Position numbers and translations under genes: made by a program
The notes under the pieces: model-generated
The model's database searches: none
The model's input: the letters and a program-made list of their open reading frames with translations, nothing else
Told to the model about the DNA's origin: nothing
Shown: positions 1,388-56,914 of the stretch, piece by piece
How positions within the stretch are numbered: position 1 is the first letter of the stretch
Layout: each line of letters begins with the position of its first letter
Origin: Acaryochloris sp. CRU_2_0
GTDB taxonomy: Bacteria > Cyanobacteriota > Cyanobacteriia > Thermosynechococcales > Thermosynechococcaceae
Reading direction: 5' to 3'
Assembly: GCA_012034865.1 (NCBI GenBank)
Contig: JAAUOM010000013.1
Coordinates: forward strand, 1-56,914
DNA: 56,914 bases

Positions 1388-2509
1388 GTGTATCTTCAGC
1401 AGCTTCACCTCTTTCACTTTCGCAATTATGGGGCGCAGCAGGTTGAGTTTTCTGCCCCCAAAACAATTCTGGTGGGAGCAAATGCCCAGGGTAAATCCAA
1501 CCTCTTAGAAGCCGTTGAACTGCTGTCAACGTTGAGGTCGCATCGAGTGAGCCGCGATCGCGACCTCGTTAAAAATGGCGAACCCCTCGCTCAAGTGACG
1601 GCCAATCTCCAGCGAGACAGCGGCCCTCTCGATTTAAGTTTGACCTTAAGAACCAACGGACGAAGGACTGTTGCCGTCAATAGCGAAACCATCCGCCGCC
1701 AGCTCGACTTTTTAGGCCACCTCAATATTGTCCAGTTTTCCAGTCTCGATCTAGACCTAGTACGAGGCGGGCCAGGAGAACGTCGCAACTGGCTCGATAC
1801 TGTCCTCATACAATTAGAACCCCTCTATGCCCATCTCCTCCAGGACTATCAACAGGTTTTGAAACAGCGCAATGCCTATCTCAAGCACCATCGAGCCGAT
1901 GAGACCCCCGTAGATCCTCAACAGCTTGTCCTCTGGAATCAGCAATTAGCGGCCAGGGGTGCACGGGTGATTCAGCGTCGCCAACGCATGTTAACCCGTT
2001 TAGTGCCCTTAGCCCGTCACTGGCACCAGACCATTAGTGGCCAACAAGAAGACCTAGAGATTCTTTATACGCCCAATATCAGCTACGATGCCCAACAGCC
2101 AGGGCAACTCTATCCCCTCTTTTTGCATCAGCTTGAAGAAAAGGCACTCCTAGAACAATTACAAGGCATCTCCCTAGTCGGTCCCCATCGGGATGAAGTC
2201 ACCTTACAGATTAATGGTACCCCAGCTCGCCAATATGGTTCCCAAGGCCAACAGCGAACCTTGGTGCTGGCTCTGAAATTGGCTGAGTTAAACCTGATTG
2301 AAGAGGTCATAGGAGAAGCTCCACTATTACTGCTAGATGATGTGTTAGCTGAGCTGGATCTCAACCGCCAAAATCAACTCTTAGACGCCATTCAAACCCG
2401 CTTTCAAACCTTAATTACCACCACTTATCTAGGGGCTTTTGATGCCAAATGGCTGGACTCGGCTCAAGTACTTTCGGTACAGGCAGGGCAGATTCAATGT
2501 CCGGCTTAA
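1388..2509 (+). CDS. recF: DNA replication and repair protein RecF
   Basis: RecF is an SMC-like ATPase that helps load RecA at single-strand gaps in damaged or stalled replication forks. The protein is 373 residues, normal for the family, and starts at GTG 1388. It opens [14 protein letters not shown]; the Walker A motif GANAQGKSN lies at residues 30-38, the ABC-type signature [14 protein letters not shown] near residue 285 and the Walker B stretch [12 protein letters not shown] near residue 313. It follows rnd with a nine-base gap. No dnaA or dnaN lies nearby. Confidence 0.95.
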
Positions 2510-2548
2510 CGTTATCCTAGAAGCAGTAACATTCCCATTCTCTCCGAT

Positions 2549-3112
2549 ATGGTTCAAGTTCCCTCTAAACCTCTCACTCTGGCAGAATTTTTGAGGCTAC
2601 CTGAGACAAAGCCTGCCAGTGAATATATTGAGGGTGAAATCATCGAAAAGCCTATGCCCCAAGGGAAACACAGCCGTATTCAGGCCGAACTGTTAGCCGC
2701 CCTTAATCAGGTTGTCAAGCCACAACAGGTAGCCTGCGCCTTTCCCGAACTGCGCTGTACCTTCGGTGGACGCTCAATCGTTCCTGATATTGCTGTATTT
2801 GTTTGGAACCGGATTCCCTGCGACGATAGGGGTGAAATTGCCAATACCTTCTCCCTCGCGCCAGATTGGACTATTGAAATTTTGTCGCCAGATCAGAGTC
2901 ACACCAAAGTGACTAAAAATATTTTGCACTGTCTCCACCATGGTGCATCTATGGGTTGGTTGGTTGACCCAGACGAAAAAACCGTGTTTGTGTACTACCC
3001 CAAACAGGAAATTGCCATCTTCGATGAACCCGATGCAGTTTTGCCATTGCCAATCTTTGCGAAGAGGCTAAAGCTGAGGGTGATGGATTTGTTTGCCTGG
3101 TTGAAGCTGTAA
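2549..3112 (+). CDS. Uma2 family (DUF820) endonuclease-like protein, copy 1
   Basis: This 187-residue protein has the Uma2/DUF820 layout: an N-terminal LTLAEFLRLPE helix, then ELRCTFGGRSIVPDIAVF with the PDxAV motif, DWTIEILSPDQS with the conserved Glu, and GWLVDPDEKTVFVY. The family adopts a restriction-endonuclease (PD-(D/E)XK) fold, is greatly expanded in cyanobacteria and is mostly uncharacterised. It stands 40 bases after recF. A diverged paralogue of the same length lies at 25593-26156. Confidence 0.85.
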   Translation: MVQVPSKPLTLAEFLRLPETKPASEYIEGEIIEKPMPQGKHSRIQAELLAALNQVVKPQQVACAFPELRCTFGGRSIVPDIAVFVWNRIPCDDRGEIANTFSLAPDWTIEILSPDQSHTKVTKNILHCLHHGASMGWLVDPDEKTVFVYYPKQEIAIFDEPDAVLPLPIFAKRLKLRVMDLFAWLKL

Positions 3113-3240
3113 TCCCTTTTCTCGATCATCAAGCTAAAGATGCGGGTAAGGAAGATGGGGAAGAAGTTCTAGCTCAATTTCGGAGAATGGGTATAACAAG
3201 CTAGGAATGGCAAAATCTTGGGATGAGCTTTTTGAGGGGT

Positions 3241-3583
3241 CTAACCGCCAACAAATTTGACGGGATAGCCCTGTTGTTGCAGATAGTCTGACAGTTTCTG
3301 GCGATGATCGCCTTGGACCTCAATTGCAGTCTCTTTAAGGGTGCCGCCTGCGCCACATTGGACTTTGAGCTGTTTGGTGAGGGTTGCCAAGGTTGCAGGT
3401 TGCGCTTGAAATCCACTGATGACCGTCACGGTTTTGCCTTTGCGGCCCTTTCGCAAGACTTGGATCTTTAAACTCTGCTGCGAGGGAGGGAGATCGAGGC
3501 GAGAGGTGGGGGTCAGGGGGAGGGGCACCGCCGAATTCACGATAGACCCGATGATCAGAAGAGGGACGCTGTTTTTTACCCAT
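3241..3583 (-). CDS. SUI1/YciH (eIF1-like) translation factor, frameshifted near its N-terminus
   Basis: The C-terminal part (about 99 residues from 3540) is a clear SUI1 domain: LKIQVLRKGRKGKTVTVISG, CGAGGTLKETAIEVQGDH and QQQGYPVKFVGG. SUI1-like proteins in bacteria resemble eukaryotic eIF1 and may affect start-site fidelity. The usual cyanobacterial N-terminus, MGKKQRPSSDHRVYREFG, is present but in another frame, starting at ATG 3583. The frames join somewhere in 3500-3540, a C-rich stretch (plus-strand G runs), and need one base removed or two added. The alternative is a short protein from GTG 3540, which has no clear ribosome-binding site. Restored length is about 113 residues. Confidence 0.75.
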
Positions 3584-3660
3584 AGAGATTGTCAGTCAAC
3601 CAGGGTAAAATCATAACCCAATCCAGAAAGCGGTATAAGTTGAGTATCGGTTGCCATTCA

Positions 3661-4374
3661 TTATTTTTGTAAGGATCCTAACCAAAATTCACTGACGATA
3701 AAGCATAAGGTGGCACTGGCAAGAGGCACGGTCAAATTATCAATTCCCCACTTGGAAAAGGCTTCTAGGCTAGAGACAAGGATAGAGATTGCGATCGCAA
3801 TCCCTGCCGTCGCCAATCCCTGGCCTTGGGTCATCGACAAAATACTATAAATGATCAAGAAGCTCACCCCTGCCATACTCAAAGACCCTTCCCAGCTTTT
3901 TTGCATTCCCCATACTTGATAGGGATGCTGACCCCAACGTTGACCAATGAGAGCCGCCAGTCCATCTCCCCAGGTCATGGTTAAAATACCGATGGCTGCA
4001 TATTGCGGTAATTTCAAAGGCCAAAACCAGGCAATTAACAGACCAATACTCAAAGCATAAAAAAAAGTCCCCCAACTCTTGCGACCCACCCCACTCACAC
4101 TCGCTAGAATCGGATAGCGATAAGACAGCAGAGTGACAACACTAAAAATGACCGAAGCCGCAATCCCCACCCAGGTGGGGATATCTAACCACCAGGCCAG
4201 CAAAATCACATTCCCTGTACCGATATGCACAACTTTGCGAGTGATCTCTGGATCGTTAGGAAAGAAGCGCTTCAGCAGTTCGGCACTGCCAATCACAATT
4301 CCTAACCAAATCCCCAGCAACCCTAATTGCAGAATTAAGGAACTTGGTGGATGGAGGGATGCCAGCACAATCAA
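3661..4374 (-). CDS. Phytol kinase / polyprenol kinase family membrane protein (VTE5-like)
   Basis: A polytopic membrane protein of 237 residues with about six or seven hydrophobic helices. It carries family hallmarks EITRKVVHIGTGN near residue 44, TMTWGDGLAALIGQRWG near residue 133 and KSWEGSLSM near residue 158. This CTP-dependent lipid kinase family includes VTE5-type phytol kinases, which phosphorylate phytol released from chlorophyll and feed tocopherol synthesis. The MPBQ methyltransferase at 38690-39676 acts later in that pathway but is not adjacent. Exact substrate (phytol, dolichol or another prenol) cannot be fixed from sequence. Confidence 0.8.
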   Translation of the reverse strand: MIVLASLHPPSSLILQLGLLGIWLGIVIGSAELLKRFFPNDPEITRKVVHIGTGNVILLAWWLDIPTWVGIAASVIFSVVTLLSYRYPILASVSGVGRKSWGTFFYALSIGLLIAWFWPLKLPQYAAIGILTMTWGDGLAALIGQRWGQHPYQVWGMQKSWEGSLSMAGVSFLIIYSILSMTQGQGLATAGIAIAISILVSSLEAFSKWGIDNLTVPLASATLCFIVSEFWLGSLQK

Positions 4375-5959: not shown

Positions 5960-7239
5960 CTAATATCCTAAATTCTGCTCTAGCTCCAGAATGACCGTTT
6001 CTAAGTACCATTCTTCAGAGCGGCCAGGGTAATTGGTTTTGACTCGTCGGATCATGCCATCGGCTAGCGCTTGATTGCCTCCCACTAAGCCCAACAAACG
6101 CTGGCGCAGACGTTCACAGGTGGTTTCAGGTACAGAAGTTTGTGTGGGTTGGATGGCGTTGAGGCTGGCTAAGATTTGTTGATAGTTAAGCCAATCTTCT
6201 TGGGTGCAAAAGAGACTAATGGCGCGCTGATAATCGGAGATCGCAAGGGGATACTCCTTCGTGCCCGCATAGGTTAATCCACGCTGATAGAAGGCTTCAG
6301 CATTATTAGCATTGAGGCTGAGGGCTTCAGCATAGTCCTCAATGGCTCCTAAGTTGTGGCCAATGGCTCGATAGGCATTGCCACGGGCAACGTAAGCGTC
6401 ACTATCGGCTGGGGAGAGGGCTAAGGCTTGGTTACAGTCGGCAATGGCTCCTTGGGGATCCTTTAAGTGGAGTCGGGCTTTACTGCGGCCTCGGTAGGTA
6501 ATGGCATCGGCAAAATTGAAGTTGAGGGCTTGGTTAAAGTCGGCGATCGCCGATTGATAGTTACCCTGTTTGCAATAAACTAAGCCCCGGCAGCAGTAGG
6601 CTTTGCCATCTTTAGGATCAGCTTGCAGAACCCAGTTGATGTCGGAGAGAGCTTGGGTAAGTTGGCCTTTTTTAGCGCGATCCAAGATTTGAGTGAAGTA
6701 GTCTTTGGTGGAGATAGGAGGTGGGGGAGCGGGTGGGGATGAAGAGGATGGGGAAGGGGCGGAGTTTTTGGGTCGAATTTGTTCGATTTTGGCTAGGCAT
6801 TGGCGGGCGTTGTCACCATCTTTTTGGTCGAGATAGAGTCCGGTGGCGATTTTGAAGTCGGCGATCGCAGCTTGAATATCGCCTTGTTGCGGTGGACAAT
6901 GCCTCGTAACTTATAAGCGGCGGCATAGGTTCGTTCGCAGCGAATGGCCTCTTCGATATCGGTCAGGGTGCCAGGTAAATTTTTTAAGGCGAGGCGGGCT
7001 AAGGCTCGGCAGTAGTAGGCTTTAGCGCAGTTGGCGTCAATATCTAGGGCTTTGCCGTAGTCCTCAATGGCTGCGTACAGGTTGCCAGAATCATAGTGGG
7101 CTAGACCCCGCTGACAATAGGCTTCTAAGGCAAAGGGATCTTGGTCGATGACTTGGGTAAAGGTGGCGATCGCACCTGCATAATCAGGATTATGCAGGTG
7201 TTCTTGACCGTGTTGGAATAATGGAGTACTCATGGACAC
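5960..7239 (-). CDS. TPR repeat protein, split by a one-base frameshift near 6890
   Basis: Two adjacent reading frames form one tetratricopeptide protein. The upstream frame (to 6793) carries three TPRs and breaks after KLRGIVHR. The other frame continues as QGDIQAAIADFKIATGLYLD, a Pro/Ser-rich linker, and five or so further TPRs ending near ELEQNLGY. One extra base at about 6890 (plus strand GTTGCGG to GTTGGCGG) restores a continuous protein of about 426 residues. TPRs are protein-protein interaction scaffolds and give no specific function. It lies 103 bases upstream of leuC on the same strand. A true pseudogene is possible, but other genes here carry the same kind of lesion. Confidence 0.75.
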
Positions 7240-53450: not shown

Positions 53451-56276
53451 ATGGCTAACGATGACCTAGTTCCCCTCAATCTATCCCATATCCAACCCCC
53501 AGAAGAGCAGCTAGCAGAGCATTGTCCCCAGGACACCGAAGCCGTCCTTAAAGCTCAACTCCAGCAAGCAGTTCTGCTCGCACAGATCACGAATGAGATT
53601 CGGCAAAGTTTAGAGACGCCAGTGATCTTTCAGACTGCGGTGAAGGAAGTCTGGGAATTGCTACAGGCCGATCGCGTTGCCATCTTTCGGCTGGATCCAG
53701 GTGCCAATTACACCAAGGGTGTCTTTGTGGCTGAGCGAGTCGGGTCTGCCTTTGACTCTGCGTTAGCTGCCCAGGTTCAGGATGATTGTTTTGGCCATAA
53801 TTGTGCCGCCAAATATCGATTGGGGAGAGTATTGGCTACCCCTGATATTTACAATGCGGGTCTAAGTGACTGTCACATTCACATTCTGGCGCGATTTCAA
53901 GTCCGGGCTAATCTTGTCATTCCTCTGCTTGAGGGGGAAAAGCTCTGGGGACTCTTGTGTATTCACCAATGTTCAGAGCCACGGGTATGGCAAACCGCTG
54001 AAATCGAGTTTATGCAAAAGGTAGCCACTCAGCTGAGCATTGCCTTAAAACAAGCAGCCTTATTGACGGAGAGCCAACGGCGTACTCAAGAATTGCAAGA
54101 GACCCTGATCTACCTTAATGCCCAAATAGAACGGGAAGCTCTCTTGGCTCAGCATGAGCGTCATGTGGCTCAGATTATTCAACTGATTCGCCAAAGCCTT
54201 GATGTTGACGAGATTTTTCAAACCACGACCCAGGAAGTACGGCAGTCTTTGAAGTGCGATCGCGTCGTTGTCTATCGTTTTTTCCCCGATTGGTCGGGGG
54301 AATTTGTCTTTGAAGCGGGTGAACCCCACCTCCTACCCTTAGCAACGGCTCACCAGACCACCCAATGGCAGGATACTTACTTACAAAATACCCGGGGAGG
54401 GCAATATCGAGACAATGCGACAACGGTAGTAGCCGATATTTACCAGCAATCCTATTCTGACTGCCATTTAGAGATGTTAGAACGGTTTGAGATCCGGGCC
54501 TTTATGATTGTGCCCGTTTTTGTGGGCAATACCCTTTGGGGGTTGTTAGCCGCCTACCAAAATCACGTTCGTCCCTGGCATACTCTAGAACTGAATCTTC
54601 TCAAACAGGTGGGTCTGCATTTGGGGGTGGCCTTGCAACAGGCCGAATTATTACAACAACTGCGGGAAGCTAAAACGAAAGCAGAAGCAGCCAATCAGGC
54701 TAAAAGTGCCTTTCTAGCCCATATGAGCCACGAGCTACGAACGCCCTTGAATGCCATTTTGGGGTTTAGTCAACTCCTTGGCCGGGATGAGAGCCTAACC
54801 CCAACACAGCAACAAACCTTGGATACCATTAATCGCAGTGGTGCCCATCTCCTGAACTTGATTAATGACGTTTTGGAAATGTCGAGAATTGAGGCGGGTA
54901 AAGCCAGTCTCAATGTCAACGATTTTGATCTGCACGTTCTCTTTGCATCTCTTTACGAAATGTTTAGTCTCAAAGCCCAGTCTCGCCACCTCTGCTTCGA
55001 GTTTGATATCCCTGCGGATTTACCCCGGTTCGTTAAGGGGGATGAAAGTCGGCTGCGTCAAGTCTTGATCAATCTGCTAGGCAATGCCCTAAAGTTTACA
55101 GAAATGGGTTCTGTTCACCTAGCCGTCGCCTGGACTTGTCTGATGCCAGAGAACAATCCAGGGGAGTGCCATCCCACGCCTGAGGTTGGTGATCTATCCC
55201 AGAAGCCTGGAGACCCTCACTCCCAGCAGATCCGCTTGCATATTATGGTTAAAGATACAGGGGTTGGCATTGCCGCCGAGGAGTTAACCCACCTGTTTGA
55301 GGCTTTTGCACAAGCCGCTGGAGGCCGCCAATCTTCTGAGGGAGCAGGTTTAGGGTTGGCAATCTCCCAGCAATTTGTGCGGTTGATGCAAGGGAACATC
55401 ACCATAGACAGCCAATTCGGGCAAGGAACCCTTGTCCAGCTCCAAATTCCAGTGGTAATGACTGCTTCTTCAGGAGCTTTGGTGGAATGTTACCCTCAAA
55501 AAATTACTGGCTTTGCCCCCGATCAAGCAGACTGGCGCATTCTCATTGCAGAGGATCACCCTGAAAATCGAGAGTTATTGATGAATTTGCTGGAAGGGAT
55601 AGGGTTTCAGGTTCAGGCTGTGGAGAATGGGGAGGCTGCGATCGCACTCTGGCAAACTTGGTGTCCTCATTTGATCTTAATGGATTGGCAAATGCCGATT
55701 ATGGATGGGTACCACACCACTCAACAAATCCGCCAACTCGAAGGTCAAACCCAGTCATTTCAGTTATCGACCCAGGGTGGTCTCCTCACTTCCCCCTCTC
55801 CAAACTTAGACACAGCGAATTCAAGGGTCAAAACCATCATTCTGGCCTTGACTGCCAACGTCTTTGAGGAGGTTCAGCAAAACTGCCAAGACGCTGGATG
55901 TGATGATTTTATCGGTAAACCCTTTCAACTTAATATCCTGCTGGAGACCATTGCTACCCATCTGGGTGTCAGGTATATCTATGAGCCTCCCCAGCAAATG
56001 ATTGCTGGGAGGAATAACCACAGCACTCAATCCTACTCTAGCGTGGACATTGCCCAACAACTATCGGTGTGGCCTAGAACCCAGTTGTTGACCCTAGAGA
56101 AAGCAGCAATTGAACTGGATGAAGTTCAAGTCCATCACCAGTTGTCTGCGATCCAGGCTGAACATCCAGATTTGGGGTTGACACTCATGAGATTCTTCAA
56201 AGGCTTACAGTTGGACAAAATTGCCGATTGTGCCCATCAGGCATTAATGCTACAGAAAATATCTGAGAAGATATAA
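53451..56276 (+). CDS. Hybrid histidine kinase with two cyanobacteriochrome-like GAF domains
   Basis: A soluble 941-residue sensor: GAF1 (about 50-200), GAF2 (about 240-400), HisKA with HMSHELRTPLNAIL (His427), HATPase (N-box NLLGNALKFTEMG, G-boxes DTGVGI and GAGLGLAIS), and a receiver domain with ILMDWQMPIMDG (Asp745), plus a C-terminal tail. GAF1 has DDCF (111-114) and CHIHIL (Cys141), 28 residues apart, as in DXCF cyanobacteriochromes. GAF2 has CHLEML (Cys338) and Tyr310 in place of the DXCF Cys, with WQDTYLQNTRGGQYR nearby. I infer bilin binding at both GAFs and phosphotransfer from the kinase to its own receiver. It precedes a response regulator. Confidence 0.9.
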   Translation: MANDDLVPLNLSHIQPPEEQLAEHCPQDTEAVLKAQLQQAVLLAQITNEIRQSLETPVIFQTAVKEVWELLQADRVAIFRLDPGANYTKGVFVAERVGSAFDSALAAQVQDDCFGHNCAAKYRLGRVLATPDIYNAGLSDCHIHILARFQVRANLVIPLLEGEKLWGLLCIHQCSEPRVWQTAEIEFMQKVATQLSIALKQAALLTESQRRTQELQETLIYLNAQIEREALLAQHERHVAQIIQLIRQSLDVDEIFQTTTQEVRQSLKCDRVVVYRFFPDWSGEFVFEAGEPHLLPLATAHQTTQWQDTYLQNTRGGQYRDNATTVVADIYQQSYSDCHLEMLERFEIRAFMIVPVFVGNTLWGLLAAYQNHVRPWHTLELNLLKQVGLHLGVALQQAELLQQLREAKTKAEAANQAKSAFLAHMSHELRTPLNAILGFSQLLGRDESLTPTQQQTLDTINRSGAHLLNLINDVLEMSRIEAGKASLNVNDFDLHVLFASLYEMFSLKAQSRHLCFEFDIPADLPRFVKGDESRLRQVLINLLGNALKFTEMGSVHLAVAWTCLMPENNPGECHPTPEVGDLSQKPGDPHSQQIRLHIMVKDTGVGIAAEELTHLFEAFAQAAGGRQSSEGAGLGLAISQQFVRLMQGNITIDSQFGQGTLVQLQIPVVMTASSGALVECYPQKITGFAPDQADWRILIAEDHPENRELLMNLLEGIGFQVQAVENGEAAIALWQTWCPHLILMDWQMPIMDGYHTTQQIRQLEGQTQSFQLSTQGGLLTSPSPNLDTANSRVKTIILALTANVFEEVQQNCQDAGCDDFIGKPFQLNILLETIATHLGVRYIYEPPQQMIAGRNNHSTQSYSSVDIAQQLSVWPRTQLLTLEKAAIELDEVQVHHQLSAIQAEHPDLGLTLMRFFKGLQLDKIADCAHQALMLQKISEKI

Positions 56277-56324: not shown

Positions 56325-56914
56325 ATGATGACTTTTCCTGCTAGCGATATCTTGATTGTGGATGATAATATCAACAATCTCCAGCTTTTATCTGGGATAT
56401 TGGCTGAAGATCGCTTGACAATACGGCGAGCCATTAACGGAGCCATCGCCTTAAAAAGTATCCAGGCTATCCGACCAGACTTGATTCTCTTGGATATTCT
56501 CTTGCCCGATTATTCCGGGTATCAGCTCTGCCAACTCATCAAACAAAATCCTGCAACCGCCGATATTCCTATTATTTTTATCAGTGCCTTAAACACCACC
56601 CTGGATAAGGTAAAAGCTTTTGCTGTAGGGGGAGTCGACTACATTAGCAAACCCTTTGAGTTTGCAGAAGTCAAAGCCCGCATCCACAGTCAACTCCAAC
56701 TGCGAGCAGCCAAAGCAGAAGTGGAAGCCCTCAATGCCGAATTGGAAGCGCGGGTGGAGCAACGGACAGCCCAGTTAATGGCGGCCAAAGTCACCCTAGA
56801 GGAACAGATTAAGGAGCGCCACCTTGCTGAAGTTGCCTTACAGCAAAGTGAAAGTCGAATTTCGTATCTCTTATTGAAAAACGCCTCGGATCTCATTTTT
56901 CTGCTGGATCCCCA
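56325..56914 (+). CDS. Response regulator with REC, coiled coil and the start of a PAS-like domain (truncated by the window)
   Basis: An open frame from ATG 56325 (or 56328) to the right edge, about 196 codons. The receiver domain has ILIVDDNINNLQLL, LDILLPDYSG (phosphoacceptor Asp in LLLDILLP) and FISALNTTLDKV, KPFEFAEVK. A Leu/Glu/Ala coiled coil follows (LEARVEQRTAQLMAA), then QSESRISYLLLKNASDLIFL, which looks like a PAS start. A kinase or cyclase output may lie beyond the edge. It begins 49 bases after the hybrid kinase on the same strand, so both are probably one signalling operon. Confidence 0.88.
   Translation, partial: MMTFPASDILIVDDNINNLQLLSGILAEDRLTIRRAINGAIALKSIQAIRPDLILLDILLPDYSGYQLCQLIKQNPATADIPIIFISALNTTLDKVKAFAVGGVDYISKPFEFAEVKARIHSQLQLRAAKAEVEALNAELEARVEQRTAQLMAAKVTLEEQIKERHLAEVALQQSESRISYLLLKNASDLIFLLDP

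Follow-up and report, generated by a model that had tools for sequence, protein, structure and literature searches.

A predicted tandem cyanobacteriochrome hybrid histidine kinase with DXCF and expanded red/green GAF domains, and its candidate operon

The window, that is the whole stretch of 56,914 nucleotides analysed here, corresponds to contig C211 of a draft genome of 4.9 Mb (G000) assigned to Acaryochloris. Toward its 3' end lies a gene whose product is very probably a two-GAF cyanobacteriochrome hybrid histidine kinase of the kind of AM1_1557, AM1_C0023 and AM1_6305. The gene has the following features:

53451..56276, plus strand: predicted tandem cyanobacteriochrome hybrid histidine kinase, 941 amino acids, ATG start; GAF1-GAF2-HisKA-HATPase-REC followed by a C-terminal extension of about 110 residues
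53580..54071, plus strand: GAF1, residues 44-207, DXCF class (structure alignments, tree)
53781..53792, plus strand: DDCF motif, residues 111-114, with the second cysteine, Cys113 (alignment)
53802..53804, plus strand: Cys118, aligned with TePixJg Trp499; a cysteine in the window alone among the 18 GAF1-type rows shown
53871..53873, plus strand: canonical Cys141, in CHIHIL (alignment)
53958..53960, plus strand: Cys170, at the position of TePixJg Ile551; a cysteine in 15 of 16 GAF1-type rows besides the two references
54072..54164, plus strand: linker between the GAF domains, residues 208-238 (alignment)
54165..54662, plus strand: GAF2, residues 239-404, expanded red/green (XRG) class (structure alignments, tree)
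54366..54380, plus strand: WQDTY, residues 306-310, with the Trp289 and Asp291 equivalents and Tyr310 at the His293 (second-cysteine) position (alignment)
54423..54425, plus strand: Thr325, at AnPixJg2 position 308, BV4 type (alignment)
54453..54455, plus strand: Tyr335, at AnPixJg2 position 318, BV4 type (alignment)
54462..54464, plus strand: canonical Cys338, in CHLEML (alignment)
54507..54509, plus strand: Ile353, at AnPixJg2 position 336, not BV4 type (alignment)
54699..54899, plus strand: HisKA domain, predicted phospho-acceptor His427 in SHELRTP (Pfam, motif)
55038..55454, plus strand: HATPase_c domain with N, G1, F and G2 boxes (Pfam, motif)
55539..55940, plus strand: receiver domain, predicted phospho-acceptor Asp745, lysine in IGKPF; its end (residue 830) is an estimate

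Pfam finds two GAF stretches in the protein (E 8.8e-49 for the protein), together with HisKA, HATPase_c and Response_reg. All motifs expected of a hybrid histidine kinase, namely the HisKA histidine, the four ATPase boxes and the aspartate and lysine of the receiver, are intact, which predicts a protein of this type. The receiver contains about 25 additional residues near 766-792, as judged by eye. Nine tandem proteins of one clade were compared, the window's own and those at loci L050-L057 of the genus. No Pfam family matched the C-terminal extension. In six of the eight genus relatives it aligns over 106-109 residues (31-41%); the exceptions are L051, which ends early, and L053, which is cut off.

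A preliminary description of this gene had pointed to Cys113 in DDCF and Cys141 in CHIHIL, spaced by 28 residues as in TePixJ, and had placed GAF1 in the DXCF class. The alignment to TePixJg bears this out. Cys113 lies on Cys494 and Cys141-His142 on residues 522-523, where Cys522 is the canonical chromophore cysteine, and GAF1 thus shares with TePixJg the DXCF motif, the 28-residue spacing and the histidine directly after the second of the two cysteines. Among solved structures, GAF1 best matches 6oap (1.9e-42; 'Dual sensor histidine kinase', presumably PPHK), and it also matches 3vv4 (7e-32), which we take to be TePixJg. By its title 6oap is a two-sensor kinase like the window protein, but its matched GAF has a tyrosine in place of the second cysteine. 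The TePixJg chain, in turn, is named a methyl-accepting chemotaxis protein in the PDB, whereas the predicted output of the window protein is a histidine kinase. In a maximum-likelihood tree of 65 rows, GAF1 falls on a side of 20 rows with TePixJg (support 100/99). The tree was built from 63 aligned rows, minus 12 fragments or rows without class features, plus 14 fetched relatives. Those 14 were drawn from 29 fetched relatives, 6 others being repeats and 9 being omitted by choice without a rule, and the search behind them kept the best 30 loci (window included) of far more matches, which lie in at least 115 of 291 genomes.

The four-residue motif is weak by itself. A DNA pattern for Asp-Asp-Cys-Phe, with its first codon fixed as GAT, matched once in the window, and because it also matched at least once in 8 of 100 shuffles of the window (mean 0.08), it is the domain matches that carry the case. 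A chance motif as the explanation is ruled out by the E-values of the domain and structure matches. In published work, 4GLQ is given as TePixJg and 3W2Z as AnPixJg2 (PMC11284453), and the photoproducts of DXCF domains are said to range from teal to orange (PMC6628166).

For GAF2, the preliminary description had named Cys338 in CHLEML, Tyr310 at the DXCF position and a red/green domain. Both residues are as described: aligned to AnPixJg2, Tyr310, which sits within WQDTYLQNTRGGQYR, falls on His293, and Cys338 falls on Cys321, so that Cys338, like Cys141 in GAF1, occupies the canonical chromophore position of a characterized cyanobacteriochrome. GAF2 has the WXDXXL motif of the XRG class (W306 Q D T Y L), no DXCF cysteine, and Cys338-His339; as in the XRG domains AnPixJg2 and 6bhn, the equivalents of Trp289, Asp291 and Cys321-His322 are present. 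Its matches to solved structures are 6bhn (1.3e-56), presumably NpR6012g4, 5zoh (3.7e-56) and AnPixJg2 3w2z (6.8e-54). In the tree it falls on the opposite side of 45 rows, with AnPixJg2 (100/99). The Trp/Thr/Ala set reported to accompany unisomerised phycocyanobilin (PMC11284453) is also present in GAF2, its third residue being mapped by counting.

The GAF1 rows of the genus form a clade of nine in this tree (100/95), and so do the GAF2 rows (97/84); the pair therefore seems to have been inherited as a unit, while single pocket residues changed. All nine proteins keep the canonical cysteine and histidine of GAF1. The second cysteine is found in five (window, L050, L051, L053 and L057) and is replaced by tyrosine in L052 and L054 and by serine in L055 and L056. 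The canonical cysteine of GAF2 is kept in seven of the nine; L055 has an aspartate there with a cysteine one place on, L056 has a glycine, and in L053 a tyrosine replaces the histidine that follows it. L055 and L056 thus combine the loss of the GAF2 Cys-His with serine at the second cysteine of GAF1, and both lie in a full operon with a V4R gene (described below); these changes may reflect sensor decay or a different ligand. In L057 (G001, contig C33) a stop codon lies within GAF2 of the tandem kinase gene. Across the eight genus relatives, identity is 45-68% in GAF1, 46-69% in GAF2 and 32-48% in the linker, L050 having the closest GAF domains. Outside the genus, too, both GAF classes occur in one protein (for example at L058, L060 and L063). 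A further tandem at L061 (G002) belongs to another branch and has His, Phe and His at AnPixJg2 positions 293, 308 and 318. The two-GAF stretch was matched at E <= 1e-60 in 16 of 58 genomes, its own included and some matches being partial, and a contig scan of named relatives yielded two loci (a Pleurocapsa metagenome-assembled genome and one remote match), neither of them helpful.

The red/green assignment of GAF2 held as to class, yet it told only half of the story. AnPixJg2 was made biliverdin-accepting by H293Y, F308T, H318Y and I336V ('BV4'), of which F308T and I336V are described as most crucial (PMC8156171), and 5ZOH is AnPixJg2_BV4 (PMC7504144). Window GAF2 has the same residues as the engineered protein at 293, 308 and 318 (Tyr310, Thr325 and Tyr335), and the isoleucine of wild-type AnPixJg2 at 336 (Ile353). 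With three of four BV4 residues but isoleucine at the fourth, red/green with phycocyanobilin is therefore the safe reading of GAF2: by its class it would be a phycocyanobilin domain, with biliverdin and a far-red/orange cycle possibly in addition. A stronger version, in which GAF2 is a biliverdin far-red/orange sensor in the cell, so that the kinase compares blue/green with far-red light as would suit a chlorophyll d organism, is a real but minority possibility. It would fit the distribution of the Tyr-Thr-Tyr trio, which is present in six of the nine genus proteins (window, L050, L052, L053, L054 and L057), three of which (L050, L052 and L054) have all four BV4 residues, and in none of 25 XRG loci outside the genus. 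These 25 remained from 29 fetched loci after four repeats of genus members were set aside and are the best matches only, a small part of those listed, which limits the contrast; two of them, L078 and L080, have Tyr-Ala-Tyr or Tyr-Ser-Tyr. It would also fit the naming of AM1_1557g2 and AM1_C0023g2 (PMC4876366) and of AM1_6305g2 (biliverdin-binding; PMC9378818) as far-red sensing with biliverdin. Yet one of the two most crucial positions, 336, is isoleucine here as in L053 and L057, and AM1_C0023g2 takes both bilins, switching at 650/539 nm with phycocyanobilin and at 699/618 nm with biliverdin (PMC4876366). Moreover, phycocyanobilin should be available, because the genome has a PcyA-family bilin reductase gene, a single copy as in six of the seven genus genomes; it also has one heme oxygenase. 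Since the genus relatives carry four, three or fewer BV4 residues, they offer natural proteins for probing the BV4 rule.

Two further readings concern single domains. GAF1 might do without the two-cysteine blue/green cycle and be a single-cysteine domain of green/teal type or a structural domain; the replacement of its second cysteine by tyrosine in two and by serine in two of the nine proteins argues that this residue can be lost in the family, and GAF1 has additional cysteines in Cys118 and Cys170, where TePixJg has Trp499 and Ile551. We consider this unlikely for the window protein, which keeps Asp111, Cys113, Phe114, Cys141 and the next histidine. Alternatively, one GAF domain may be dead and purely structural, leaving a kinase that reads a single color pair, as the loss of the GAF2 Cys-His in L055 and L056 could suggest; in the window protein, however, both domains retain the cysteine, the histidine and the residues of their class, and we regard this as very unlikely.

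The combination of two GAF classes in one protein is already known from Acaryochloris. AM1_6305g1 is described as DXCF and phycoviolobilin-binding (PMC11284453), and AM1_6305 of Acaryochloris marina, likened here by published description only, has, like the window protein, a DXCF GAF1 followed by a GAF2, which in AM1_6305 is reported to accept biliverdin. AM1_1557 and AM1_C0023 are reported to have a common architecture of GAF domains, histidine kinase and response regulator, the studied GAF being the second (PMC4876366), and the GAF-GAF-kinase-regulator order of AM1_C0023 is that of the window protein. In AM1_C0023, Ser334 lies four residues before the canonical cysteine, which by inference is Cys338, matching the numbering of the window protein, and 12 of the 13 residues around this cysteine, read from the printed mutagenic primers, are equal. 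A DNA pattern derived from those primers matched in none of the seven genus genomes.

Beyond the kinase, three further stretches, two of them on other contigs of the same genome, bear on its likely output:

56325..56912, plus strand: next gene, a receiver followed by a probable helical stretch, 48 bases after the kinase and cut by the contig end
Contig C209 (4774 bases), 1692-4176, minus strand (L110): HATPase piece (60% identity), OmpR-type regulator (83%), V4R gene (58%) and small gene (68%)
Contig C25, 3644-9275 (L109): slr0144-0149-like cluster with two V4R genes and two phycobiliprotein-like genes, and a divergent homolog of the small gene beside it

The preliminary description had proposed one kinase feeding its own receiver and a downstream regulator. 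The kinase-receiver layout stands; the next gene, however, shares 60% identity over 195 residues with a REC-PAS-HisKA-HATPase protein at L055, and because this intact relative is a REC-PAS-histidine kinase, a simple regulator is probably not what the downstream gene encodes, and the likely output would lie further down the operon. At L055 (G001), L056 (G002) and L051 (G006), the tandem kinase, the REC-PAS-histidine kinase and an OmpR-type regulator follow one another on the same strand, and after them come genes for a V4R-type protein and for a small conserved one (about 125 residues). The regulator consists of REC and Trans_reg_C in L055, and its counterparts are 92% (L056) and 79% (L051) identical. 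For the small conserved protein, Pfam gave no match in L055 and only a sub-threshold one in L051. Both the partner kinase and the V4R gene of L051 are split over several frames, and its tandem kinase frame ends early. L053 (G005) has a V4R gene, the small gene and a phycobiliprotein-like gene 5' of the tandem kinase, and a HEAT-repeat protein (5995-6933) stands beside these three. L057 runs off the contig end.

That the window's own operon takes the same course is something we infer from these relatives. The C209 genes are probably its far end. On C209, a MerR-like frame occupies the place at which the partner kinase should begin, which may reflect misassembly or rearrangement. C209 and the last 1000 bases of the window have no 16-base word in common. 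A scan for terminator-like sites found none between the kinase and the next gene; over the region the scan was uninformative, with 1 promoter-like site found against 3.9 expected and 5 terminator-like sites against 3.8. Upstream of the kinase, the window's genes (transketolase, fabF and acyl carrier protein, named by eye) looked unrelated.

The seven genus genomes contain 22 V4R matches. Thirteen lie in or next to phycobiliprotein-like genes, in clusters that by position are of the slr0144-0149 type; the other nine comprise four at a distance of 2.6-2.8 kb from a tandem kinase (L051, L053, L055 and L056, the last below the Pfam cut-off), the one on C209, another on a contig of 4.1 kb (L112), and three more outside such clusters. 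The operon's V4R and small proteins are 25-33% identical to the V4R proteins of the C25 cluster and to the divergent gene beside it. Clusters of the slr0144-0149 type have been linked both to photosystem assembly and to how bilin globins arose; some studies credit the adjacent slr0150-0152 instead, which weakens this functional hint (both PMC10151467). A literature search in which most subscription papers were beyond reach returned no report of a link between cyanobacteriochromes and V4R proteins.

The gene content of the genome points to Acaryochloris or a close relative as very likely. Acaryochloris is described as making chlorophyll d and as having lost its phycobiliproteins; its strain MBIC10699 still has apcB, a pcyA on the chromosome and seven isiA paralogs (PMC9324425). 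Another source reports a single apcB-like gene, together with slr0149-like genes that bear the wrong name apcA and adjoin slr0144-0148 homologs (PMC6002478). In the window's genome, C25 holds one strong and two weak phycobiliprotein-family matches, and eight PF00421 genes are present, two as long as psbB/psbC and six that, at 350-386 residues, resemble Pcb/IsiA. One phycobiliprotein-like gene of the C25 cluster is split across two frames.

The chromophores, colors, phosphate flow and target genes of the proposed system would be as follows. GAF1 would most likely take up phycocyanobilin on Cys141 and isomerise it to phycoviolobilin, switching between a state that absorbs blue, with Cys113 attached to the chromophore, and one that absorbs teal to orange, with Cys113 free. 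GAF2 would bind phycocyanobilin (red/green), or possibly biliverdin (far-red/orange), on Cys338. Both signals would meet at a single HisKA/HATPase core, which would phosphorylate its own receiver, and the phosphate would then pass to the partner REC-PAS-histidine kinase and to the OmpR-type DNA-binding regulator of the same operon. Several observations weigh against parts of this picture. The kinship with AM1_1557, AM1_C0023 and AM1_6305 rests on architecture, numbering and the 13 residues read from primers. GAF2 has Ile353 where BV4 has valine. The kinase core, at 55-62% identity, surpasses GAF2 in conservation in L055 and L056, and GAF1 in L057. An AlphaFold model of residues 34-410, computed as a single sequence, was unusable (mean predicted local distance difference test score 43, predicted template-modeling score 0.26). 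The probable remaining operon genes of the window's genome lie on C209, a contig separate from C211, and the stretches fetched for L050, L052 and L054 contain no V4R gene.

We are confident in the two-GAF cyanobacteriochrome hybrid histidine kinase as such and hold far more loosely to its fullest elaboration. In that version, the protein would be a dual-bilin color comparator, with a blue/green GAF1 and a GAF2 that reads red or far-red according to its bilin, acting through the REC-PAS-kinase and the OmpR-type regulator on a duplicated V4R gene and a small partner gene; this is speculative, and we think it rather improbable. If true, it would mean that bilins serve as a color gauge for photosystem assembly or pigment handling in an organism without phycobilisomes. 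The protein itself, if the organism is indeed an Acaryochloris, adds to the tandem cyanobacteriochromes of a group living on far-red light, and its gene neighborhood is the new lead, offering as a candidate output V4R-type genes akin to a cluster linked with photosystem assembly.

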